Shown here piece after piece: positions 21,771 to 34,629 of a stretch of 64,000 bases of DNA; within the stretch, counting starts at the first letter, position 1; each line of letters starts with the position of its first letter. Below the pieces are notes generated by a model, which worked only from the letters and a program-made list of their open reading frames with translations, was not told the DNA's origin and made no database searches. The position numbers were made by a program, and so were the translations under genes. The stretch lies in assembly GCF_000184705.1 (NCBI RefSeq), contig NC_014831.1, positions 1,178,001 through 1,242,000 on the forward strand, written 5' to 3'. Source of the stretch: Thermaerobacter marianensis DSM 12885 (GTDB taxonomy: Bacteria > Bacillota > Sulfobacillia > Thermaerobacterales > Thermaerobacteraceae).

Positions 21771-22076
21771 GTGCCGGTGACCCGCCTTGACGGCCGGGAA
21801 CTGGTGGTCAACGCAGAACTCATCGAGACCCTGGAGGCTACGCCCGACACCGTCATCACCCTGACCACCGGCCGGCGGCTGGTGGTGCGGGAACCGGTGG
21901 AGGAGATCGTCCGGCGGGTGGTGACCTACCGGCGGCGGGTGCTGGCCGGCGGGCGACGGCCAGGGAACCCGGGCCGGTCCTGGCGGGCCACCCCGGTCGC
22001 TGCGGGAGGGGCGGAAGAGCCGACGGCGGAGCCGGGCCGTCATCCCACCGGTCGTGAGGACGGTGACGCGGGTTGA
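21771..22076 (+). CDS. swrD: Swarming motility protein SwrD / FlbD family
   Basis: About 101 residues. The first 60 match the small FlbD family exactly in pattern (VTRLDGRELVVNAELIETLEATPDTVITLTTGRRLVVREPVEEIVRRVV). In Bacillus the protein promotes motor torque through an unclear route. The last 40 residues are an unrelated Gly/Pro-rich tail. GTG at 21771 lies seven bases after GGGAGGGAGG; GTG 21768 is possible. The stop overlaps the TTG start of fliL. The place between flgE and fliL is the standard one. Confidence 0.88.
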   Translation: MPVTRLDGRELVVNAELIETLEATPDTVITLTTGRRLVVREPVEEIVRRVVTYRRRVLAGGRRPGNPGRSWRATPVAAGGAEEPTAEPGRHPTGREDGDAG

Positions 22077-22612
22077 GAGGCAAGCTGAAGCTCGTGCTGG
22101 CGATCGTCGTCACCGCCGCCGTGGCGGCGTTGGGAACCTGGCTGGCGGTGGGCCGGGCGGGCGGTGGCTCGCCCCCGCCGCCGGAACCGGTCGACGTGGC
22201 ACTGGACCCCTTCACCACCAACCTGCGGGACGGCCGGGTGGTCCAGGTGAGCCTGGTGCTGCGGGTGGCGGGGGCCGAGGCGGCCAAAGCCCTCGAGACC
22301 AAGCACGGGGCCGACGTCCGCCACCAGGTGTACCGGGTCCTGCGGGGGATGACGGCGGCCGACCTGGCGGGGACGGCGGGCATGGACCGCCTGCGGCAGG
22401 CGGTCTGGCAGGCCCTGGCCGCGCCGGCGGCACCGGCGGCGGAGAACGAGACCGGTTCGGCGGGCGGTGGCGCCCAGGCCCCCGGTGCGGGGGCCGGTTC
22501 CTCCGGCACCGGGGCCGGCGAGGCGGCCGGCGCATCCGGCGGCGGAACCGGCGGCGCCGGGCTGGGGCTGCCCGTACTGGAAGTGCTGATCACGGACCTC
22601 ATCGTCCAGTGA
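22073..22612 (+). CDS. fliL: Flagellar basal body-associated protein FliL
   Basis: A 179-residue membrane protein with one N-terminal membrane segment (residues about 5-27) and an outer FliL domain: DVALDPFTTNLRDGRVVQVSLVLRV, and the end LEVLITDLIVQ. FliL rings support the stator units. A Gly/Ala-rich insertion of about 45 residues interrupts the domain before the last strand. The start is TTG at 22073, overlapping the swrD stop by four bases. Confidence 0.88.
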   Translation: MRGKLKLVLAIVVTAAVAALGTWLAVGRAGGGSPPPPEPVDVALDPFTTNLRDGRVVQVSLVLRVAGAEAAKALETKHGADVRHQVYRVLRGMTAADLAGTAGMDRLRQAVWQALAAPAAPAAENETGSAGGGAQAPGAGAGSSGTGAGEAAGASGGGTGGAGLGLPVLEVLITDLIVQ

Positions 22613-22633
22613 GCGCGGGAGGAGGGCCGGCGG

Positions 22634-23602
22634 GTGAACCAGGGGACAGCGCGAAAGGGCGGGCGGCGGTCGCCGGTGATCCGGCTTTACGATTTCCGGC
22701 GCCCGGACAAGTTCTCCAAGGAACAGCTGCGCACCCTGGCCATGATCCACGAGAACGTGGCGCGGCTGGCCACCGGGTTCCTCTCCGGCCAGCTCCGCAC
22801 CGTGGTAGAGGTCGACGTCCTGGAGGTGGAGGAGACCACCTACGGCGAGTTCATCACCGGCCTCGCCAACCCCACGGTGGTGGCCGTGTTCAACCTGCCG
22901 CCCCTGGAGAGCAGCGCCGTCATGGACCTCGAACCGTCCATCGCCTTCCCCATGGTCGACCGGCTCTTCGGCGGGCCGGGCACCGGGGCGGCGGCGGGCC
23001 GCGGGCTGACGGAGATCGAGACGGTGGTCATGCGGGTGATCCTCCAGGGGCTCCTCGGCGCCGTGGCCGAGGGTTGGGGGCAGCTGGTCCAGGTCCAAGG
23101 CGAGCTGGTGACCGTGGCGGCGAACCCCCTGTTCGTCCAGGTGCAGCCGCCCAACGAGATCGCCGTGCGGGTGGTCATGGCCGTCCGCTTCGGCCAGCAG
23201 GAGGGCGCCTGGCGGCTTTGCCTGCCCTACCCGCTCCTGGAGCCGGTCCTGCCGCGGCTGGCGGTGCACCAGTACTACGCGCGGGAGACCAAGAGCCACG
23301 CCCGGTCCCGCGAGCGCTGGGAGGAGGGCCTGCGCCACGTGCCCCTACCCGTCACCGTGGTCCTCGGACGAACGCGGCTCACGGTACGGGAGCTGCTGGC
23401 CCTGGAACCCGGGCAGGTGCTGCGGCTGGATACCCGGGCCGGGGGGCTCGTGGACGTTCTGGTGGCAGGCCGGCCCAAGTTCCGGGGCTTGCCGGGAAGG
23501 GCAGGGCCCCGGCTGGCGGTGCAGGTGGTGGAACGGGTGGCGGAGGAGGAGCAGGGCCATGGGCACCGGCGAATGGGAGATGTTGTCACAAGAGGAGATT
23601 GA
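22634..23602 (+). CDS. fliM: Flagellar motor switch protein FliM lacking the N-terminal CheY-binding peptide
   Basis: A C-ring protein. The body is normal Fli[31 protein letters not shown], a CheC-like middle domain ([25 protein letters not shown]), and a C-terminal SpoA domain ([24 protein letters not shown]). The usual N-terminal peptide of pattern LSQxEIDALL, which binds phospho-CheY, is absent: only 15 residues precede the body. The fliL stop codon lies in the same frame just upstream, so no earlier start can supply it. GTG at 22634 has GGAGGAGGG seven bases upstream. 322 residues. Confidence 0.93.
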
Positions 23603-24422
23603 CGCCCTGTTGCGCAGCCTGGCCGAAGAAGGCGGGCAAGGAGCGGCGGGCGAGGGCGCAGCGGGCGCCACGTCCGGCGAGGCGGGTCGCGCCGGGAACG
23701 ATCCGGCGGCCGCCGCCACGACCGCCGCGGACCAGTCGGCTCCGGCTCCGGGGGACGATCCGGGCGGGCAGGGATCCCGCGGCCCCGGCCGCGGAGCCGG
23801 TGCGGCCGGGGCTGGGACCGGGTCCGGGGGGCCGTCCGCCGGGGCTGGGCAGGCAACGGGCCCCGGCGCCCGTAGCACGGCAGGTGCCGCGGATGCCACC
23901 GGCGCGGGCGGGTCCGGCGGAGCAGGCGGGGATGTCGAGCAGCGGGCGGGGTCGTCCGGAACCACCGGCGGGGTGGGCGCGGGCACCTCTCCGGCCGGCG
24001 CCCCGGCGACCGGCTCCGGGCAGGCGGCCACCGCCGGCGAGCCCGCCCTCCGCTGGGAGCCGGGCCCGGGGTTCACGGCCGGGGCCGCCTTCCGCCCCTT
24101 TCCCGGTGCGGAGGGGACGGCAGCCGCCGGCCCCGCGGGTGGCGACGGGGCCGGCCCGTCCCGCGGTACCCTGGACCTGGTGCTCGACGTCCCCCTGCAG
24201 CTCACCGTGGAGCTGGGGCAGACCCAGCGGACGGTGCGGGAGATCCTCGAGATGGCTCCCGGCACGGTGGTCGAGCTCGACCGCCTGGCCGGGGAACCGG
24301 TGGACCTGCTGGTCAACGGCCGGCTCATCGCCCGGGGCGAGGTGGTGGTGATCGATGAGAACTTCGGCATCCGCATCACCGACATCGTCAGCCCTGGCGA
24401 GCGCCTCCGCCGGCTCCGCTGA
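23559..24422 (+). CDS. fliN: Flagellar motor switch protein FliN (FliY-like N-terminal peptide)
   Basis: A C-ring component of 287 residues. The N-terminus is [17 protein letters not shown], the CheY/phosphatase-type peptide normally found on FliM and FliY. A 160-residue Gly/Ala/Pro linker follows, then a C-terminal SpoA domain ([65 protein letters not shown]). The CheC-like phosphatase domain that defines Bacillus FliY is missing; the linker takes its place. ATG at 23559 has GGAGGAGGAG seven bases upstream and overlaps fliM by 44 bases. Confidence 0.92.
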
Positions 24423-24510
24423 CGGGGCCGGCGATCCCGCAGGCGAGGCCTGCGCCATCCGCCATCCGGAGGGCGGCGCGGGCGGGGCCGGCCCGCGGGA
24501 GGAGGCCGTG

Positions 24511-24888
24511 GTGGTGGTCCTCGACCCCGCTGCCTACACCCGCCGGCAGGTGCGGGCCCAGCTGGCTCCCTTGGGATGCACCGTGGTGGAGCTGGCGGGC
24601 ACCGAGGACGGAGCCCATGTGGCCCGCCAGGTGGCCCGGGCCCGGGTGCTGGTGGTGGAACCGGCGCCCTACGGCAGCCGGGCCGAGGCGTGGCTCCGGG
24701 AGCTGCGGGCTGCCAACCCCCAGGCCGCCCTGGTGGTCTGCACGGCGCTGACGACCCGGGCGGCGGTGGTGGCCTACCGGCGGGCGGGGGCCGCCGACGT
24801 GGTGGCCAAGCCGTGGGAGCCGGGCCGGCTGCAGGAGGCGGTGGCGGCCGCGTTGGCCACGGCCGGCCCGGGCGCGGGGACGACATGA
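24511..24888 (+). CDS. CheY-like pseudo-receiver domain protein (phospho-acceptor Asp replaced by Glu)
   Basis: About 125 residues aligning over the full length of CheY, and in cheY's usual place between fliY/fliN and fliO. Equivalents are LDPAAYTRRQV (family VDDAAFMR), VLVVEPAPYG (family VTMDITMP), VVCTALTT (switch Thr) and GAADVVAKPW (conserved Lys). One of the two pocket acids is Pro, and the phospho-acceptor Asp is Glu (codon 24658-24660), so phosphorylation as in CheY is not expected; Glu could mimic the active state. GTG at 24511 or 24514 suits the GGGAGGAGG site. The frame is also open to ATG 24355. Confidence 0.72.
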   Translation: MVVLDPAAYTRRQVRAQLAPLGCTVVELAGTEDGAHVARQVARARVLVVEPAPYGSRAEAWLRELRAANPQAALVVCTALTTRAAVVAYRRAGAADVVAKPWEPGRLQEAVAAALATAGPGAGTT

Positions 24889-24946
24889 CGGCCCACCCGC
24901 CGGGCGACCGGCCCCGGGCCGGCGGGCGGCCGGCCCGGGGCCGTAT

Positions 24947-24956
24947 GGGGGGGGGG
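24947..24956 (+). repeat. Run of ten G at the 5' end of fliO
   Basis: Ten consecutive G between ATG 24945 and GTG 24959. An ATG at 24885, which overlaps the preceding stop as ATGA, reads into this run in a different frame from fliO; one extra G would join them. Confidence 0.9.
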
Positions 24957-24958
24957 CG

Positions 24959-25327
24959 GTGGCGGGCCGGATCTGGCCGGTGGCCAGACGGCGGGCGGCG
25001 GGGCGGGGGCCGGTCGCCGGCCGGCGGCGGGCCGGCCGATGGGGAGACCGGGGGGACGGGGGAGCCTTTTGGACCAGTCTGATCCAGTTCTTGCTCGCTT
25101 CCTTGCTCGTCATCGCCGCCGCCGCCTGGGGGAGCCGCGCCCTGGGGCGCTGGCTGCGCCCGCGCCCGGCCCCGGATGGCCTGCAGATCCGGTCGGCGGT
25201 CTCCCTGGGCGGCCGGCGGATGCTGTGCGTGGTCCGCTGGCACGGCGACGACCTCCTGCTGGGGGTCACCGACCACGGGGTGAGCCTCCTGGACCGGCGC
25301 CCGGCCCGGGGGGATGAACCGGCATGA
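24959..25327 (+). CDS. fliO: Flagellar biosynthesis protein FliO
   Basis: About 122 residues with one membrane segment (SLIQFLLASLLVIAAAAWG) and a small cytoplasmic domain of FliO pattern (LQIRSAVSLGGRRMLCVVRWHGDDLLLGVTDHGVSLL). FliO helps assemble the FliP ring of the export gate. The first 38 residues are Arg/Gly-rich and unconvincing. The start is unsettled: GTG 24959 follows a G10 run, and GTG 24980 is another choice. ATG 24885, which overlaps the previous stop in ATGA style, is out of frame by one base. The end overlaps the fliP start by four bases. Confidence 0.78.
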   Translation: MAGRIWPVARRRAAGRGPVAGRRRAGRWGDRGDGGAFWTSLIQFLLASLLVIAAAAWGSRALGRWLRPRPAPDGLQIRSAVSLGGRRMLCVVRWHGDDLLLGVTDHGVSLLDRRPARGDEPA

Positions 25328-26007
25328 TCCCCCAGGTCAACGTCACCCTGCAGCCGGCGACCGGGCCCGAGGGGCTGGGCGTCGCCCTGCAGATCCTGCT
25401 GCTCCTGACGGTGCTGTCCCTGGCCCCGGCCATTCTGATCATGATGACGGGGTTCACCCGGATCGTGGTGGCCCTGTCGTTCCTGCGCAGCGCCCTGGGC
25501 ACCCAGCAGGCTCCGCCCAACCAGGTGCTGGTGGGTCTGGCCCTTTTCCTCACCGTGTTCGTCATGGCACCGGTCTGGCAGCAGGTCTACCAGGACGCCT
25601 GGGTCCCCTACCGGGACGGGCAGATCGGTCAGGTGGAGGCGCTGCAGCGGGCCCAGCAGCCCGTGCGGGAGTTCATGTTCCGCTACACCCGCGAGCGGGA
25701 CCTGGCCCTGTTCCTGGAGCTGTCGGGCCGGGGCCCCGTGGAATCCCGGGACCAGGTGCCGACCTACGTGCTGATCCCGGCCTTCGCCATCAGCGAGCTG
25801 AAGACGGCCTTTCAGATCGGGTTCATCCTGTACGTGCCGTTCCTGGTCATCGACATGGTGGTGGCTAGCACCCTGATGTCCATGGGCATGCTGATGGTTC
25901 CGCCCATGCTGGTCTCCTTACCTTTTAAGATCCTCCTGTTCGTCCTGGTGGATGGGTGGAACCTGGTGGTGCGGTCGCTGCTGGCCTCCTTCGGCGCAGG
26001 GACCTAG
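25324..26007 (+). CDS. fliP: Flagellar type III export gate protein FliP
   Basis: A 227-residue integral membrane protein with four predicted membrane segments. Family signatures are [36 protein letters not shown]-type sequence near residue 25-60, [73 protein letters not shown]. No cleavable signal peptide is seen, and the region before the first membrane segment is short. ATG at 25324 overlaps fliO. Confidence 0.96.
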   Translation: [227 protein letters not shown]

Positions 26008-26163
26008 ACCCGCCCCGGGGGCTCCATGCCCCTCCGGGGGGCCTGGTCCCGCCGGGTGGGGCCGCCGAGCTGGGACGCACCGGCCGGCGGGCGGCGGCCG
26101 TATGGCGGGCGAGGAGCCGGTGGGCGGAGCGGGCCGGGCACAAAGGACGAGGAGGCGGGCGGG

Positions 26164-26433
26164 ATGACGGATGCCATGGTGCTGACGGTGGGACGGGAGG
26201 CCCTGTGGACCGGATTGCTGGTGGCGGCACCCGTCCTGGTGCTGACGGTGCTGGTGGGCGTGGTCGTCAGCGTCCTGCAGGCCGCGACCCAGGTGACGGA
26301 GCAGACCCTGGTCTTCGTCCCCAAGATCCTGGCAGCGGCCGCGGCCCTGCTGCTCTTCGGGCCGTGGATGCTGGCCACCCTAGTGCGGTACACGGTCCAG
26401 CTGTATCAGTCCATCCCGGGCGTGCTGGGGTGA
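26164..26433 (+). CDS. fliQ: Flagellar type III export gate protein FliQ
   Basis: An 89-residue protein with two membrane segments (LVAAPVLVLTVLVGVVVSVLQ and a second near ILAAAAALLLFGPWMLATL), with the conserved QAATQVTEQTLVFVPKI joining them. ATG at 26164 has GAGGAGG eight bases upstream. About 155 bases of gene-free DNA separate it from fliP, unusual for this tightly packed group. Confidence 0.95.
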   Translation: MTDAMVLTVGREALWTGLLVAAPVLVLTVLVGVVVSVLQAATQVTEQTLVFVPKILAAAAALLLFGPWMLATLVRYTVQLYQSIPGVLG

Positions 26434-26537
26434 AAGGGGCAACGGGCTGGACCGGGCCCCACGGGAACGGCGCAACCGGGCGTCCACGCGCCGGGTGACG
26501 ACCGGGCCCGGCCCACGGGCCACGGAGGTGGGGAAGG

Positions 26538-27311
26538 GTGGACTTGGCGGCCATCGCCACCACGGAACTGAACCGGTTCCTGCTCTGCCTGGCCCGGACC
26601 AGCGGCCTGGTGGTGGCCTCACCGGTCTTCGGCGGGGGGCTGGTGCCGGCGCCCGCCCGCGCCTTCCTGGCCGTCCTTCTGGCGCTGAGCATCTTCCCCC
26701 TGATGCCGCCGGTGTCGCCGCCGGCGACGGTGCTGGGCTACGGCGGAGCCTTGCTGGCCGAGGTGGCCGTCGGCCTGGCCCTGGGGCTGGTGACGGCCCT
26801 GGTGTTCGCCGCCGTGCAGCTGGCCGGCCAGCTCCTCGATCTGTCCACGGGCTTCGGCCTGAGCGGCGTGTTCGACCCCGTTTCGAGCCAGTCCATGCCG
26901 GTGCTGGGACACTTCCTCTACCTGGTCATGTGGGCGATGCTGCTGGCCACCGACGGCCACCACCTGATCCTGCGGGCCCTGGCCGAGAGCTACCGCCGCG
27001 TTCCCCCGGGCGGGGCGGGCCTGGCCGCCGGTGCCCCGGTGGTGCTGGACCTGGCGGGGTGGATGTTCGCCACCGGGCTGATGCTCAGCCTGCCCGTGCT
27101 GGCCGTCCTGGTGGCGGTGATGGTGGCGCTGGGTCTGGTGTCCCGGGCGGTACCCCAGTTCAACGTGTTCATCACGGGTCTGCCGGTCCAGGTGGCGGTG
27201 ACCCTGGTCGCCCTGCTGGCGGGCCTGCCCGCCCTGGCCGCGGCCATGACGGGCCTGGTGCAGCCCATGGGCGAGGCCCTCGGTCGCATCGTGGAGGCGA
27301 TGGCGCGGTGA
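26538..27311 (+). CDS. fliR: Flagellar type III export gate protein FliR
   Basis: A 257-residue protein with about six membrane segments. Family patterns include LCLARTSGLVVASPVFGGGLVPAPARAFLAV at the N-terminus, the central GQLLDLSTGFGLSGVFDPVSSQSMPVLGHFLYL, and the C-terminal VPQFNVFITGLPVQVAVTL. FliR completes the FliP5-FliQ4-FliR1 export gate. GTG at 26538 follows GGAGGTGGGG. The stop overlaps an open frame into flhB. Confidence 0.95.
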   Translation: MDLAAIATTELNRFLLCLARTSGLVVASPVFGGGLVPAPARAFLAVLLALSIFPLMPPVSPPATVLGYGGALLAEVAVGLALGLVTALVFAAVQLAGQLLDLSTGFGLSGVFDPVSSQSMPVLGHFLYLVMWAMLLATDGHHLILRALAESYRRVPPGGAGLAAGAPVVLDLAGWMFATGLMLSLPVLAVLVAVMVALGLVSRAVPQFNVFITGLPVQVAVTLVALLAGLPALAAAMTGLVQPMGEALGRIVEAMAR

Positions 27312-27493
27312 CGCCTCAGGAGTGCGTTGCAGGCCGTCCGGTCCCGCCAGGCGGTGCGGGTGGGCCGGTTGGGGGCAGCGGGACGGGACGTGATGGGACG
27401 GTCCGTTCCGGGAGGGGGCGTTCCGCGACGACTGGCGCCGTCGCAGGGCGCTCGGGGACCGGCGGCGGCGCGACCGGCCGCACCGGGTTCCGG

Positions 27494-28741
27494 ATGAACC
27501 TGCAGCTCTTCGCCGGCGAGCGGGTGCTGCCGCCCTCCCCGCGCCGGCTGCGGGAGGCCCGGCGCCGGGGCGAGGTGGCCCGCAGCGCCGACCTCACGGC
27601 CGCCCTGCTGCTTCTGGCGGCGGCCGCCCTGGCCGGTGTCCTGGTGCCGGCGGCCGCCCGGGAGGTGGCCCGCCTGACCCGCCACCTCTGGAGCACCCTG
27701 CCGGCGGGGGTCCCGGGCGACTGGACCGTGGCCGACGCGGCGGGCCTGGGAAGGGTGGCCCTGCTGGCCACCCTGGCGGCCGCCGCCCCCCTGGCCCTGG
27801 TGGGATGGGCCGTGTCGGCGGGAGCCGGGTTCGTCCAGACCGGCGGGCTGTTCCAGATCGGTTTGGTGGCGCCGCGGTGGGAGCGGATCAACCCGCTGGC
27901 CGGGCTGCAGCGGCTGGTATCGCGGCGGGCCCTGGTGGAACTGCTCAAGGCACCGGTCAAGCTGGCCGTCCTGGTGGCGGTGCTGGGCCCGGCCCTGGTT
28001 CAGGCCGCCGGGCAGCTGCTGGCGGCCACGGGGACCCCGGCGGAAGCCCTGCTGCCCGCGGCGGCCCGGGCGGTGCACGGCCTCATGTGGCGCGGCGCCC
28101 TGGCCTATCTGGTGGTGGCCCTGGCCGACTACGCCTACCAGTGGTGGGAGCACCAGCAGTCCCTGCGGATGACGGTCCAGGAGTGGAAGCAGGACCAGAA
28201 GGAAGCCGAGGGCGACCCCGTCCTGCGCCAGCGGCTGCGGCAGCGGCAGCGCCAGCTGGCCCGCCGCCGGATGCTGCAGGAGGTGCCCCGGGTCGACGTG
28301 GTGGTGACCAACCCCACCCACGTGGCGGTGGCCCTGCGGTACGACCCGGCCCGCATGGGGGCGCCCGTGGTGGTGGCCAAGGGCCTGGGCGTCCTGGCCC
28401 TGCGGATCCGCGCGGTGGCGGAGGCCCACGGCGTGCCCGTGATGGAAGAACCGGCCCTGGCCCGGGCCCTGTACAAGGCCGTCGAGGTGGGCCAGGAGAT
28501 CCCGCCGGCTCTCTACGTCGCCGTGGCCGAGGTGCTGGCCTTCGTCTGGCGGCTTCGGGGCTACGGTGCCGGCGAGACCGGCGGTCCGGACGGCGGGCGC
28601 CCTGGCGGCCGGGTCGTGCCGCCCGCGGGACCGGTGGCTCGGGTGCCGGCGGGTTCCAGCCGGTCGTCCCGGAACGGCGCCGGGGCCGGGAGCGCGGCCC
28701 ACGCCCAGCCGGCCCGCTCCGGTACGGGGGAGGTGAGGTAG
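27494..28741 (+). CDS. flhB: Flagellar export gate protein FlhB
   Basis: FlhB sets export substrate specificity by self-cleavage. It begins NLQLFAGERVLPPSPRRLREARRRGEVARSADL, has four membrane segments, and carries the intact autocleavage site NPTH at residues 273-276. The C-terminal cytoplasmic domain follows (AKGLGVLALRIRAVAEAHGVPVMEEPALARALY). About 415 residues with a 60-residue Ser/Gly-rich tail. ATG at 27494 matches the family start; the frame also opens at GTG 27308, overlapping the fliR stop, which would add 62 low-complexity residues. Confidence 0.94.
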   Translation: MNLQLFAGERVLPPSPRRLREARRRGEVARSADLTAALLLLAAAALAGVLVPAAAREVARLTRHLWSTLPAGVPGDWTVADAAGLGRVALLATLAAAAPLALVGWAVSAGAGFVQTGGLFQIGLVAPRWERINPLAGLQRLVSRRALVELLKAPVKLAVLVAVLGPALVQAAGQLLAATGTPAEALLPAAARAVHGLMWRGALAYLVVALADYAYQWWEHQQSLRMTVQEWKQDQKEAEGDPVLRQRLRQRQRQLARRRMLQEVPRVDVVVTNPTHVAVALRYDPARMGAPVVVAKGLGVLALRIRAVAEAHGVPVMEEPALARALYKAVEVGQEIPPALYVAVAEVLAFVWRLRGYGAGETGGPDGGRPGGRVVPPAGPVARVPAGSSRSSRNGAGAGSAAHAQPARSGTGEVR

Positions 28742-28742
28742 G

Positions 28743-30827
28743 ATGGCGCGGCCGCTGACGGGGAAGAACCCGAACCTGGCGGCGGCGGGGCGCTGGCTGG
28801 CCGGGTCGGCCGACGCGGTGGTGGCAGCCTTCGTGGTGGTCATCGTGGGCATGATGGTGGTCCCGCTGCCCACCGCCCTGCTGGACGTGCTGATCGCGGC
28901 CAACCTGACCTTCGCCCTGGTCGTGCTGCTGATGACCATGTACACCCAGGAGCCGCTGGAGATCGCCGTCTTCCCGTCGCTGCTCCTGCTGGCGACCCTG
29001 TTCCGGCTGGCGCTCAACGTCTCGTCCACCCGGCTGATCCTGCTGCAGGGGGACGCGGGGGCCATCATCCGCCAGTTCGGCCACTTCGTGGTGGGCGGCG
29101 ACCTGGTGGTGGGCCTGGTGGTGTTCCTCATCCTGGTGGTGATCCAGTTCGTCGTCATCACCCGGGGTGCCGAGCGGGTCGCCGAGGTGGCCGCCCGGTT
29201 TACCCTGGACGCCCTGCCCGGCAAGCAGATGAGCATCGACGCCGACCTCTCGGCCGGGCTCATCGACGAGCAGGAGGCCCGGGCGCGGCGCCAGCGCATC
29301 GCTCGGGAGGCCGATTTCTACGGCGCCATGGACGGTGCCAGCAAGTTCGTCAAGGGCGATGCCATCGCCGGCGTGATCATCACCGCCATCAACCTGGTGG
29401 GCGGGGTGCTGATCGGGGTGCTGCGGGACGGACGTCCTGTGGCGGAGGCACTGCAGGTCTACTCCCTGCTCACGGTGGGCGACGGCCTGGTGTCCCAGAT
29501 CCCCGCCCTGCTGCTGGCCACGGCGACGGGCATCGTGGTCACGCGGGCGGCCGGTGACGACCACCTGGGCGGCGACCTGCGGCGGCAGGTCTTCTCCAAC
29601 CCGCGGGTGCTGGCCGTGGCGGCGGTCTTTCTCTCCCTGCTGGCCTTGGTGCCGGGGTTGCCCAAGGTCCCCTTCTTCGTGCTGGCGGGGGTGGCGGCGG
29701 CGGGGGCCTGGGGGCTGCAGCAGCAGGCCCGGCGCCGGGCGGAGGAAGAGGCCGCCCGGGCTCGGGAGGAGGCGGCGGCGGCCCGGGCTGAGCCCGAGCC
29801 CGTGACGGTGGCGCCGGTGGACCCCATCGAGATCGAGCTGGGGTACGGTCTGCTCCCTCTGGCCGACGAGTCGCGGGGCGGGGACCTTTTGGCCCGCATC
29901 GCCGCCATCCGCCGGCAGATGGCCCAGGACCTGGGGGTGGTGGTGCCGCTGGTGCGGGTCCGGGACAACGTGATGCTGGACAGCCGGACCTACGTCATCC
30001 GCCTGCGCGGTGCCGAAGTGGGGCGCGGCGAGCTTTTGCCCGACCATTACCTGGCCATGGCCACGGGCCTGGAGACGGAGCCGGTGGAGGGCATCGAGAC
30101 CACCGAGCCGGCCTTCGGCCTGCCGGCCCGGTGGATCCCCGCAGCCAGCCGGCAGCGGGCCGAGCTGGCCGGCTACACGGTGGTGGACCCGGCCTCGGTG
30201 CTGGCCACCCACCTGTCGGAGCTGCTGCGCCAGAACGCCTACCGCCTGCTGACCCGCCAGGACACCCGGCAGCTACTGGATGGGCTGCGCCAGGTGGCCC
30301 CCGCCCTGGTGGACGAGCTGCAGCAGCACCTGAGCCTGGGCGAGATCCAGAAGGTGCTGCAGAACCTGCTGCGGGAGGGCGTGGCCATCCGCGACCTGGT
30401 GACCATCGGCGAGGCCCTGGCCGATCAGGCGCCCGTGACCCGGGATGCCGACCTGCTCACCGAGTTCGTCCGGCACCGGCTGGCGGCCCAGATCTCCGAG
30501 TCCCTGCCCGTCCGGGACGGGAAGTTGCGGGTCCTGACCCTCGATCCGGCGGCCGAGCAGGTCATCCGCGAATCCCTGCAGCAAACGCCCGGGGGCAGTC
30601 ACCCCGCCGTACCCGCCGACTGGCTGGGCCGGCTGCTGCGGGCCGCCCAGGCCGAGGTCCGTCGGGTGGCCGCCCAGGGCATCGAGCCCGTGGTCCTGTG
30701 CGCGCCGGTGATCCGATTGCACCTCTACCGGCTGCTGGAGGCGGCGGTACCCCAGCTGGTGGTGGTCTCTTATAACGAGCTGGTGCCCCACCTGCAGGTG
30801 GAGACGGTAGGGGTGATCCGGCCGTGA
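28743..30827 (+). CDS. flhA: Flagellar export gate protein FlhA
   Basis: A 694-residue protein with eight membrane segments in the first half. The FHIPEP region includes ITRGAERVAEVAARFTLDALPGKQMSIDADL, SAGLIDEQEARARRQRI, ADFYGAMDGASKFVKGDAIAGVIITAIN and VYSLLTVGDGLVSQIPALLLATATGI. The cytoplasmic docking domain starts at about residue 355 after an Ala/Glu-rich linker. ATG at 28743 has GGGGGAGGTGAGG just upstream. Its stop overlaps the flhF start. Confidence 0.97.
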   Translation: MARPLTGKNPNLAAAGRWLAGSADAVVAAFVVVIVGMMVVPLPTALLDVLIAANLTFALVVLLMTMYTQEPLEIAVFPSLLLLATLFRLALNVSSTRLILLQGDAGAIIRQFGHFVVGGDLVVGLVVFLILVVIQFVVITRGAERVAEVAARFTLDALPGKQMSIDADLSAGLIDEQEARARRQRIAREADFYGAMDGASKFVKGDAIAGVIITAINLVGGVLIGVLRDGRPVAEALQVYSLLTVGDGLVSQIPALLLATATGIVVTRAAGDDHLGGDLRRQVFSNPRVLAVAAVFLSLLALVPGLPKVPFFVLAGVAAAGAWGLQQQARRRAEEEAARAREEAAAARAEPEPVTVAPVDPIEIELGYGLLPLADESRGGDLLARIAAIRRQMAQDLGVVVPLVRVRDNVMLDSRTYVIRLRGAEVGRGELLPDHYLAMATGLETEPVEGIETTEPAFGLPARWIPAASRQRAELAGYTVVDPASVLATHLSELLRQNAYRLLTRQDTRQLLDGLRQVAPALVDELQQHLSLGEIQKVLQNLLREGVAIRDLVTIGEALADQAPVTRDADLLTEFVRHRLAAQISESLPVRDGKLRVLTLDPAAEQVIRESLQQTPGGSHPAVPADWLGRLLRAAQAEVRRVAAQGIEPVVLCAPVIRLHLYRLLEAAVPQLVVVSYNELVPHLQVETVGVIRP

Positions 30828-32179
30828 AGATCAAGCGCTTCCGGGCTCCGGACATGCGCACGGCCCTGGAGATGGTGCGGGCGGAGATGGGCCGGGATGC
30901 CGTGATCCTGCAGTCACGGCCCGTACGGGCCCGGGGATGGCGGGGCTGGCTGGGACGGGGCCGGCGTTGGGTGGAGGTGACGGCCGCCTGGGATGGGGAA
31001 GGGCCGCCAGCAAGGGCGGCGGAGGCGAAGGGCTCGGTCCCCGCGGGCGGACGGGGAGCCGCCGGGGCGCCGGAGCCGGCGGGCTGGGACGGGCCGGCCC
31101 CAGCGGCGCTGCCCACGGCGGCCGGGACGGCGCCGGCCGCGGCCCGGCGCCTGGACGTGGCGGTGGGCGACGGGCCGCTGGTGCCGCCGGTGGTCCCCCC
31201 GCCCAGGGCCGGCGGTGCAGGGGGACCCGAGCCGGCGCTCCCCGGCGTTGCGGAGCGTCGGGCACAGGACCCCGGGACCTCCTGGGCGCGGGCACCGGGC
31301 GGGGAGGCAGGGGGTTCCGGGGCCGTGGCGGCGGTGGCGCCCACGGCGCCGCCCCTGCCGCCACGGCCCGCTGCGCCGCCGCACCAGCCCGCCCACCGCA
31401 TGCCCCTCGCCGACTCTCCCTGGGCCGAGCCGGCCGCAGCTGCGGCCGGAGCTCCGGGCAACCTGACGGCGCGGCAGCCCACCCTGCCGCCGCCCGCACC
31501 GCCCCTGGCGGGCACGGTGGCGGTGGTCGGGCCCACAGGGGCCGGCAAGACCACCGTGGTGGCCAGCCTGGCCGCCCGCGCCCTCCTGGACGAGGGGCGG
31601 GAGGTGGCCCTGCTGGCCGCCGACACCTACCGGCTGGGCGCGACGTCTGCCTTGTCGGCGTATGCCGACCTGCTGGGCGTGCCTCTGGAGGTGGCCTACG
31701 CCCCCGGGGAGGTGGCGGCGTGGGCGGGAGTCCGGCCGGGCGGGGCTGACCACCGGCCGGAAGAGGCGACCCGGCGGCCGGACAGGGTGGCCCTGGTAGA
31801 TACGGCCGGGCGCAACCTGCTCCTTCCCGAAGTGGCGGCCGAACTGGCGGCCCTGGTGCAGGCGGCCCGGCCGGACCGGGTGCTGCTGGTTCTTCCGGCG
31901 ACGCTGGCGCCCGCCGAGGCGGCCGCCCTGGTGGGTGTGGGGCGCCGGTTGGGGGTGACGGACCTGGTGCTGACCAAGCTGGACGAGTGCCTCGATCCCA
32001 GGGCCGCCCTGGCCCGGGCCGCCCGCTGGGGCCTGCCCCTGGCGCTGGTGGGCGTCGGCCAGCGGGTACCCGACGATCTTTTGCCCGGCACCCCGGAGGC
32101 CCTGGAACCGTGGCTGGCGGGAGCTGCCGTGCCGGAAGGAGGGTCGGTCCATGGCGATGCCGGGGCCCGGTCCGGCTGA
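30824..32179 (+). CDS. flhF: Flagellar SRP-like GTPase FlhF
   Basis: FlhF is an SRP-family GTPase that sets flagellar position and number. The N-terminal B domain (KIKRFRAPDMRTALEMVRAEMGRDAVILQSRPV) is followed by a 170-residue disordered linker and the NG domain. G1 GPTGAGKT is at residues 236-243, then ADTYRLGATSAL, LVDTAGRN (G3) and LTKLDE (G4). GTG at 30824 overlaps the flhA stop as GTGA. 451 residues. The G domain contains a small insertion before DTAGR. Confidence 0.93.
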   Translation: MKIKRFRAPDMRTALEMVRAEMGRDAVILQSRPVRARGWRGWLGRGRRWVEVTAAWDGEGPPARAAEAKGSVPAGGRGAAGAPEPAGWDGPAPAALPTAAGTAPAAARRLDVAVGDGPLVPPVVPPPRAGGAGGPEPALPGVAERRAQDPGTSWARAPGGEAGGSGAVAAVAPTAPPLPPRPAAPPHQPAHRMPLADSPWAEPAAAAAGAPGNLTARQPTLPPPAPPLAGTVAVVGPTGAGKTTVVASLAARALLDEGREVALLAADTYRLGATSALSAYADLLGVPLEVAYAPGEVAAWAGVRPGGADHRPEEATRRPDRVALVDTAGRNLLLPEVAAELAALVQAARPDRVLLVLPATLAPAEAAALVGVGRRLGVTDLVLTKLDECLDPRAALARAARWGLPLALVGVGQRVPDDLLPGTPEALEPWLAGAAVPEGGSVHGDAGARSG

Positions 32180-33062
32180 GCGGGCGCGGGCGGTGCTGGT
32201 GGCCAGCGGCAAGGGCGGGGTCGGCAAGAGCAACTTGAGCCTCAACCTGGCCATCGCCGCCCGGCAGCTGGACCGGCGCGTCCTGTTGCTGGATGCGGAC
32301 GTTGGGCTGGGCAACGCCGAGATCCTGGCCGGGGTCACCGCGCCGCGGCACCTGGGCGATGTCCTGCTGGGCCGCTGCACCCTGGACGAGGCGGTGGTCG
32401 CCGGGCCGGCGGGCGTGGACCTGCTGGCCGGGGGTCACGGGATCGTGGACTTGCCTCCGGTGGACGGTCTCCGCTGGCGCCACGTGCTGGGGCAGGTGGC
32501 GCGGTTCGGGTGGGACCTGGTGGTCATCGACGGCGGCGCCGGCGTGGGCGGGGCGGTACGGCCCCAGCTGCTGGCCGCCCGGGAGGTCCTGGTGGTCACC
32601 ACGCCCGAGCCCACCGCCCTGGCCGACGCCTACGCCGTGATCAAGCTGGTGACGGGGCGCGACCCCGGCTCGGCGCCGCGGCTCTGGGTGGCGGTGAACC
32701 AGGTGCGGAGCCGGACCGAGGGCCAGGCGGCCTTCGACCGCCTGGCGGGGGTCTGCCGGCGGTTCCTGGGCGTGGACCTGCGGTGCCTGGGGCTGGTGCC
32801 CTTCGACCCCCAGCTGCGGGAAGCGGTGCACCGCCAGGTGCCGCTGCTCCTGGCCGCGCCCCACAGCCCCGCCGCCCGGGCGGTGACGGCCATGGCCCGG
32901 CAGCTCTTGGGCGTGCCGACTCCGGCCACCGGAGGCCTTCTGGCGTACCTGACCCGGTTGTGGCCGGGGCGGCCGGCACGGGTCGGCAACGCCGGCCCGG
33001 CGGCCGCCGACTCGCCGGGGTCCGGCGGCGCGGCGGCCCGGACCGGGAGAGGACCGGTCTAA
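32151..33062 (+). CDS. flhG: MinD-like ATPase FlhG (YlxH)
   Basis: Partner of FlhF; a MinD/ParA-type ATPase controlling flagellar number. The deviant Walker A ASGKGGVGKSN lies at about residues 18-28, followed by LLLDADVGLGNAEIL and VVIDGGAGVGG (usually DTGAG; here D-G-G-A-G), and VTTPEPTALADAYAVIK. 303 residues. ATG at 32151 overlaps flhF by 29 bases. In most Bacillota cheB follows; here the next gene is a PilZ protein. Confidence 0.93.
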   Translation: MAMPGPGPAERARAVLVASGKGGVGKSNLSLNLAIAARQLDRRVLLLDADVGLGNAEILAGVTAPRHLGDVLLGRCTLDEAVVAGPAGVDLLAGGHGIVDLPPVDGLRWRHVLGQVARFGWDLVVIDGGAGVGGAVRPQLLAAREVLVVTTPEPTALADAYAVIKLVTGRDPGSAPRLWVAVNQVRSRTEGQAAFDRLAGVCRRFLGVDLRCLGLVPFDPQLREAVHRQVPLLLAAPHSPAARAVTAMARQLLGVPTPATGGLLAYLTRLWPGRPARVGNAGPAAADSPGSGGAAARTGRGPV

Positions 33063-33120
33063 ACCAGGGAGAGGCCGCAACCGCCGCCGGGGCGGCGGGC
33101 GGGATGGGGGGACGGGGGAG

Positions 33121-33783
33121 ATGGGCGACGTGGAGTCCTTGCCCCTGGTGGTCAACCAGACCGTCGAGCTTTCCTTCGTGGGCGATCCGCCTGCCGGCTG
33201 GGCGGAGGGACCCTACCGCACCCACGTCCTGGACGTGGGTCCGAACGGCGTGGTCCTCGCCCTGCCCATGGCCCGGCAGCGCTGGGTGGTGCCGCGGCCG
33301 GGGCAGGCGGTCAGGGTCGTCTACCGCGACCCCCGGGACCCGCAGGCGGATCGCGGGGTGTACAGCTTCGTCACCGTGGTGGTCGACGCGCGGGTGGCGC
33401 CCGAACCCGAGCTGGTCGTCGCCCTGCCCCAGCGGGTCGAGCGGGTGCAGCGGCGCCACTGGGTGCGCCTCGACCTGCGCTTGCCCGTCCGGCTGGAGCG
33501 ACGCACCGACCCGCCCCAGGTCCTGACCGGCCGTACCCTGGACGTCAGTGGCGGGGGCGCCCGGGTGGTGGTGTCCGGAACCGTGGCGACGGGCGAGCTG
33601 GTGCGGGTCGAGGTGGAGTTCCCGGGGTGGCGGGCGCGGGCGACGGCCCGGGTGGTGCGGGTCGAATCGGGCGACGAGCCCGTGGCCGGCCTGGAATTCG
33701 TGGAGATCGACCCGCGGGTGCAGGACCGCATCGCCGGGTTCATCCTGGCGGAGCAGGCGCGGCGCCGGTGGCTGCTGGGGTAG
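33121..33783 (+). CDS. YcgR-like flagellar brake protein with PilZ domain
   Basis: A 220-residue cytoplasmic protein of two domains: an N-terminal YcgR/YpfA-like beta domain (NQTVELSFVGDPPAG... to about residue 100) and a C-terminal PilZ domain. The cyclic-di-GMP binding motifs are intact: RxxxR as R112-HWV-R116 and DxSxxG as D141-V-S143-GG-G146. Proteins of this type bind cyclic-di-GMP and slow or stop flagellar rotation. ATG at 33121 follows GGGGGGACGGGGG. It sits where cheB/A/W/C/D usually lie, between flhG and sigD, so it is likely part of the flagellar operon. Confidence 0.88.
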   Translation: MGDVESLPLVVNQTVELSFVGDPPAGWAEGPYRTHVLDVGPNGVVLALPMARQRWVVPRPGQAVRVVYRDPRDPQADRGVYSFVTVVVDARVAPEPELVVALPQRVERVQRRHWVRLDLRLPVRLERRTDPPQVLTGRTLDVSGGGARVVVSGTVATGELVRVEVEFPGWRARATARVVRVESGDEPVAGLEFVEIDPRVQDRIAGFILAEQARRRWLLG

Positions 33784-33843
33784 CTCCCGGCCCAGCCGCC
33801 GGCCGGGGACGGCAGGGTGAGAAGCCGGAAGGGGGGAGGCAGG

Positions 33844-34629
33844 GTGTCCGCGGAACTGAAGCAGCGGGCGGACCGGGCGGAACTGTGGCGGCGGTACCGG
33901 ACGACGGCCGATCCCGAGAGCTGGGAGGCGCTGATCCGGGAGCACCTGCCCCTGGTCCGGTACCTGGCGGGGCGGATGATCATCCACCTGCCGCCCCAGG
34001 TGGAGCTGGACGACCTGATCAGCTACGGCATCTTTGGGCTGATGGAGGCCATCAGGCGGTACGACCCGGCCCGCGGCGTCAAGTTCGAGACCTACGCCTA
34101 CACCCGCATCCGCGGCGCCATGCTGGACGGGCTCCGGGCCATGGACTGGGTGCCCCAAACCCTGCGCCGCCGGGCCCGGGACGTCGAGGCCTGCTACCGC
34201 CGGTTGGAGAACCGGCTGGGACGGCCGGCGAACGACGACGAGGTGGCCGCCGAGCTGGGCCTCAAGCCCGAGGAGTTCGCCGGCCTGCTCCAGGAGCTGG
34301 CCCGCACCACCGTGGTCTCCCTGGACGACGTCCTGCCCAGCGACTCCGACGACCCGGCGGCCGTCCTCGACCGGCTGGCCGATCCCGGGGCCACGGACCC
34401 GCTGCAGGCGGCCACCCTGGCCGACCTGCGCCGGCGCCTGGCCGACGCCCTGGCAGGGCTGCCCGAGCGGGAGCGGCTGGTGGTGAGCCTGTACTATTAT
34501 GAAGGCTTGACGGTCAAGGAGATCGCCGAGGTCATGGGGGTCAGCCCGTCCCGGGTCTCCCAGCTCCACACCCGGGCCATCCTGCGGCTGCGGGCGCGGC
34601 TGGGCGCGGAGGAGGAGGGTGGGCCGTGA
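33844..34629 (+). CDS. fliA: RNA polymerase sigma factor for flagellar operon, SigD/FliA
   Basis: A 261-residue group 3 sigma factor. Region 2 has HLPLVRYLAGRM, DDLISYGIFGLMEAIRRYDPARGVKFETYAYTRIRGAMLD, then DWVPQTLRRRARD. Region 3 has RPANDDEVAAELGL. Region 4 has LPERERLVVSLYYYEGLTVKEIAEVMGVSPSRVSQLHTRAILRLR. It directs transcription of late flagellar genes and perhaps this operon itself. GTG at 33844 lies after GGGGGGAGG. The stop overlaps the next gene as GTGA. Confidence 0.95.
   Translation: MSAELKQRADRAELWRRYRTTADPESWEALIREHLPLVRYLAGRMIIHLPPQVELDDLISYGIFGLMEAIRRYDPARGVKFETYAYTRIRGAMLDGLRAMDWVPQTLRRRARDVEACYRRLENRLGRPANDDEVAAELGLKPEEFAGLLQELARTTVVSLDDVLPSDSDDPAAVLDRLADPGATDPLQAATLADLRRRLADALAGLPERERLVVSLYYYEGLTVKEIAEVMGVSPSRVSQLHTRAILRLRARLGAEEEGGP

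Follow-up and report, generated by a model that had tools for sequence, protein, structure and literature searches.

A predicted CheY-type pseudo-receiver encoded between fliN and fliO in the flagellar operon of Thermaerobacter marianensis

Gene content of the flagellar operon

The genome of T. marianensis DSM 12885 is a single contig of 2,844,696 bp, and the window analyzed here (the whole stretch of 64,000 nucleotides) contains a flagellar operon at positions 22073-34629. The gene order is fliL, fliM, fliN, a gene for a CheY-like protein, fliO, fliP and, further downstream, flhG, a YcgR-like gene and a sigma factor gene. The genes between fliP and flhG (fliQ, fliR, flhB, flhA and flhF) were assigned from the list of open reading frames. 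The following features surround the CheY-like gene:

22634..23602, + strand: fliM (Pfam/NCBIfam); on inspection, N-terminus without an EIDALL-type CheY-binding peptide
23559..24422, + strand: fliN/fliY-type gene; N-terminal [10 protein letters not shown], low-complexity linker, FliN domain
24500..24505, + strand: AGGAGG, likely ribosome-binding site 5' of a GTG triplet (sequence)
24508..24888, + strand: predicted CheY-type pseudo-receiver gene, 126 aa from GTG 24508 (translation, alignment, AlphaFold, PDB fold matches)
24959..25327, + strand: fliO (Pfam)
25324..26007, + strand: fliP, conserved in 131 of 151 genomes of the class

The linker of the FliN protein is long, of low complexity and rich in Gly, Ala, Pro and Thr. 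The best NCBIfam match of this protein is FliY, and a search for a CheC phosphatase domain in it found none. A YcgR-type PilZ protein, probably a c-di-GMP flagellar brake, is encoded between flhG and the sigma factor gene (33121-33783).

The start codon of the CheY-like gene is ambiguous, with three consecutive GTG codons (24508, 24511 and 24514) being equally possible; the ORF ends at 24888. The Pfam receiver model PF00072 scored 29 bits, below its cut-off of 30.2, and automatic annotation may therefore miss the gene. Profile comparisons matched the protein to CheY (E 5e-32), with 1TMY and 4IGA as the best PDB profile matches. The sequence-only reading of this DNA had described a full-length receiver-like protein, and structure prediction and alignment bore this out. 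The AlphaFold model, for which the alignment input consisted of rows from related loci only, is a complete (beta-alpha)5 receiver with a mean pLDDT of 90. In a Foldseek search this model matched best to receivers, among them T. maritima CheY in complex with the FliM N-terminus (4IGA). The protein contains 13 Arg, 1 Lys and 3 Asp residues (D6, D34 and D97). Conservation at the same place in relatives, a GC3 of 0.94, dN/dS values below 1 and the full fold show that the ORF is more than a chance reading frame.

Catalytic and switch residues

Alignment placed the key receiver positions as follows (residues are counted from GTG 24508):

24523..24528, + strand: Asp6-Pro7 (codons 24523-24525 and 24526-24528), replacing the Asp-Asp metal-binding pair
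24658..24660, + strand: Glu51 (GAA) at the phospho-acceptor position, directly after beta3 in the model
24742..24744, + strand: Thr79, the retained switch Thr/Ser
24799..24801, + strand: Val98, where CheY has Tyr/Phe (K-3, Y-T coupling)
24808..24810, + strand: Lys101, the retained conserved Lys

Instead of the canonical CheY quintet (DD, D, T/S, K), the protein has DP and Glu51, together with T79 and K101. Translation and alignment thus agree with every residue named in the sequence-only reading, i.e. Glu at the acceptor, Pro at one pocket acid and the kept Thr and Lys. No other conserved Asp occupies the phosphorylation site, as D6, D34 and D97 all align elsewhere. A further loss that had gone unnoticed is that of the aromatic residue of canonical CheY at K-3, which is replaced by Val98. 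Aligned to CheYs and to receivers of other kinds, the protein has also lost the MPxMDG loop and has Trp at K+2. Since DD2, the phospho-Asp and the aromatic switch residue are all lost, the protein would neither take up phosphate from CheA nor undergo Y-T switching. By sequence and by fold it is a receiver whose key phosphotransfer residues (phospho-Asp and DD2) are replaced, which makes it a predicted stand-alone pseudo-receiver (aspartate-less receiver), incapable of being phosphorylated.

Canonical CheY proteins of T. marianensis

Two che clusters are present elsewhere in the genome, near 2.25 and 2.53 Mb. Each encodes CheA, CheW, an MCP, a CheC-type protein and a canonical CheY, and both CheA proteins carry all of P1-P5 (P1, P2, dimerisation, ATPase and CheW domains). 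Chemotaxis signalling is probably carried by these two CheYs. The Bacillus che genes lie downstream of flhG in the operon that also contains cheY. In T. marianensis no che genes follow flhG in the flagellar operon, which would fit a cheY left behind as signalling moved to the che clusters.

A further response regulator of this genome (C1:964497-964829), in which Thr-Gly stands at the DD position and the conserved Lys is missing, is likely another pseudo-receiver. The flagellar gene set and the two chemotaxis gene sets look complete despite the description of the species as non-motile (PMC3035304). Because no flagella were seen in T. marianensis (PMC3035304), any motor role of the CheY-like protein is put forward here as a prediction.

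Distribution of receivers at the fliN-fliO place

Three other Thermaerobacter species likewise have the gene between fliN and fliO (67-74% identity), and Glu at the acceptor position, the conservation of which in relatives the sequence-only reading had left to be checked, is fixed in all four species. The sister genus (G004) also carries the gene at this place (59% identity), with the Asp-Pro pair but with Asp at the acceptor site. No stops or frameshifts were found in the gene across the four species and the sister genus. On the simplest order of events, the metal-binding acid was probably lost before the change from Asp to Glu. However, G005, which belongs to the same order as G004, combines Asp-Pro with Glu, so a reversal to Asp in G004 is also possible.

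The class was scanned for receivers in 154 genomes. A receiver is present in 11 of 49 fliN-fliO/P regions, the remaining 38 having none. With the T. marianensis window, G062 and G017 added, 14 of 52 fliN-fliO gaps contain a receiver. Three of these 14 are intact (G018, G040 and G017), DD2 is lost in 11, and Glu occupies the acceptor position in six, G005 and G016 among them. The DD pair is replaced by DP in five Thermaerobacteraceae and G005, by DY in G016, by DN in G020, and by ER or EQ in G032, G050 and G062; the last four genomes keep the acceptor Asp. Wherever the fli-operon receiver is degenerate, the genome encodes an intact CheY at another site.

Among the CheY-type matches not located beside fli genes, one of 33 aligned sequences (in G007) is degenerate. 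Counted by family, degeneration affects 5 of 8 at the fli operon vs 1 of 20 elsewhere (Fisher p about 0.003, a rough value given that the families are not fully independent). The G007 receiver (C56:13903-14229, minus strand) has Asp-His for DD and Lys at the acceptor position, and does not adjoin fliN.

A canonical CheY is also encoded beside fliN in a Bacillota MAG (locus L121). This, together with the intact CheYs of G018, G040 and G017, indicates that the place is ancestral, and the earlier view that the gene lies in the normal place of cheY, with FliM/FliN upstream and FliO/FliP downstream, holds. In the phylogenetic tree, a single branch, whose support (91/77) is not firm, separates the ten most degenerate sequences from the rest. 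A tree with all fli-operon receivers grouped was not rejected (p-AU 0.25; the branches are long), so degenerate and intact receivers at this place may represent one lineage. A pattern search of genome contigs returned only generic receivers, L121 among them, with the pattern falling on the common GAxDFVxK motif; a phylum-wide profile search listed mostly ordinary CheYs, and no plasmid match to the gene was found.

Selection on the CheY-like gene

Pairwise dN/dS values (NG86; 118 codons for the CheY-like gene) were calculated within Thermaerobacter. The CheY-like gene gave 0.30-0.45, compared to 0.11-0.15 for the che-cluster CheYs, 0.14-0.25 for FliO and 0.02-0.06 for the FliN C-terminal domain; its values are thus 2-4 times those of the che-cluster CheYs. 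The most conserved part of the gene is:

24733..24816, + strand: beta4-alpha4-beta5 segment (VVC...KPW), dN/dS 0-0.16 within the genus

In CheY, the beta4-alpha4-beta5 face is the one that binds the FliM peptide. Constraint is weakest in alpha2-beta3-alpha3 around the old phospho-pocket (0.55-0.71). These segment values are trends, as the segments are short and synonymous sites are partly saturated. The gene is under purifying selection, and the trend within it is that the old phospho-pocket drifts while the switch-peptide face is held.

FliN as a candidate partner

The EIDALL-type N-terminal peptide is missing from FliM in Thermaerobacter, the sister genus and G005, while FliN carries EIDALL. 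FliN is therefore the likely docking site for CheY as well as for the CheY-like protein, which plausibly binds the EIDALL peptide at the FliN N-terminus. The idea that loss of the FliM peptide drives receiver decay was rejected, because over the class as a whole the two do not track each other; FliM still has a peptide in G032 and G020.

Possible origin and function of the CheY-like protein

The explanation that we favor, and consider probable, is that the gene is the ancestral cheY of a fla/che operon, which has lost signalling and is kept as a phosphorylation-independent C-ring binding protein. We infer its history, partner and effect as follows. The cheY of a Bacillus-type fla/che operon would have been freed by the CheYs of the che clusters. 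The fli-operon copy would have lost the second metal-binding acid first, after which, in Thermaerobacter, Glu replaced the acceptor Asp and Val the aromatic switch residue, abolishing phosphate uptake from CheA and the Y-T coupling switch. What was retained would be a small binding protein produced along with the C-ring, its conserved alpha4-beta5 face docking on a C-ring partner, for which the FliN EIDALL peptide is the best candidate. Its effect could be either competition with CheY-P or holding of the FliN tail. The repeated decay at the fliN-fliO place, in genomes whose other CheY is intact, argues for this explanation; the dN/dS, higher than that of the che-cluster CheYs as in a gene on its way out, argues against it, as do the non-motile description of the species, the uncertain grouping of degenerate with intact fli-operon receivers in the tree and the FliM peptide that does not track receiver decay.

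That same rate, two to four times the che-cluster value, is what would be expected of a dispensable paralog drifting to loss, kept by translational coupling and having no role of its own. The absence of a receiver from most regions of the class (38/49), the weak start signals and the non-motile description of the host point the same way. We nevertheless consider such a remnant unlikely, since neither the sister genus nor any of the four Thermaerobacter species has a broken reading frame, the beta4-alpha4-beta5 segment is strongly constrained, the fold is full-length and confident, and the EPAPxG motif is invariant in the genus. Less probable still is the proposal of the sequence-only reading that Glu locks the protein in an active-like state. 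Glu would here mimic aspartyl phosphate and hold a CheY-P-like conformation, constitutively biasing the motor. The fixation of Glu in the genus, its recurrence in G005 and G016 and the retained Thr and Lys, which could bond with it, are compatible with such a lock, and Asp-to-Glu changes activate NtrC and other receivers (PMC12632262, PMC4395418). However, with Pro at DD2 and Val in place of the Y-T aromatic residue the usual activation path is broken, and in the sister genus this same degenerate pocket still contains Asp. In G020, G032, G050 and G062 DD2 is lost and Asp kept, hence the loss of phosphorylation would be independent of Glu. For CheY itself, an Asp-to-Glu change is by itself insufficient for constitutive activity (PMC4395418, citing Bourret 1990), and the Trp at K+2 lies outside the activating residues Ala, Ile, Leu and Val (PMC12632262). 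In addition, Caulobacter CleD with its acceptor residue changed to Ala (allele E70A) is still functional (PMC5677366). These points led us to set the lock aside as improbable.

Regulation by a small molecule, e.g. c-di-GMP, in place of phosphorylation would liken the protein to the Cle proteins, motor ligands that resemble CheY and act independently of phosphorylation (PMC5677366). The nearby gene for a YcgR-like PilZ protein (33121-33783) and the Arg-rich composition of the CheY-like protein would fit, but the CheY-like protein has neither a C-terminal Arg-rich extension nor the [YF]xGPx[RK]R motif (its tail is AGPGAGTT), and nearly all Cle ARR sequences come from Alphaproteobacteria (PMC5677366). 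We regard this kind of control as very improbable.

To return to the favored phosphorylation-independent binding protein, the sequence-only reading had also proposed a structural C-ring ligand rather than a signal-responsive one. Its first half is plausible, given selection on beta4-alpha4-beta5 and the FliN EIDALL peptide; its second half stands as far as signalling by phosphorylation is concerned, since DD2, the phospho-Asp and the aromatic residue are lost and intact CheYs are present elsewhere. A broader version, in which the fli-operon CheY of several lineages independently became a permanent, phosphorylation-insensitive part of the C-ring on the FliN peptide with a second CheY signalling, appears doubtful. 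If true, it would describe a built-in CheY subunit of the flagellar switch.

Comparison with known systems

The protein shares with canonical CheY (T. maritima, 1TMY and 4IGA) the fold, length, single domain and place in a fla/che operon, but it is without the phospho-acceptor, one metal-binding acid, the Tyr/Phe switch and the MPxMDG loop. The Caulobacter proteins CleA and CleD are CheY-like and bind a motor peptide without phosphorylation, docking on the LSQxEIDxLL peptide of FliM (PMC5677366). The T. marianensis protein would share this independence of phosphorylation, but it does not have the Arg-rich c-di-GMP-binding tail with the [YF]xGPx[RK]R signature, and its candidate partner is FliN instead of FliM.

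It most resembles the pseudo-receivers or aspartate-less receivers, as described in PMC12632262 and PMC4395418, in its fold, the loss of DD2 and phospho-Asp, the retention of DD1, Thr and Lys, and the presence of Glu, which is the commonest residue at the acceptor position of aspartate-less receivers (26%; PMC4395418). It differs in being a stand-alone CheY-type protein encoded between fliN and fliO, a case not found in the sections consulted of these two papers. The protein is an unstudied case of a known protein kind, the workings of which are poorly known outside plants (PMC12632262). Repeated decay at one place, intact homologues in relatives and intact paralogs provide a small, clean comparison set, with which it can be tested whether a CheY can turn into a phosphorylation-independent motor ligand and whether Glu is relevant to this. 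Binding to FliN, if true, would add a stand-alone receiver to the composition of the C-ring.
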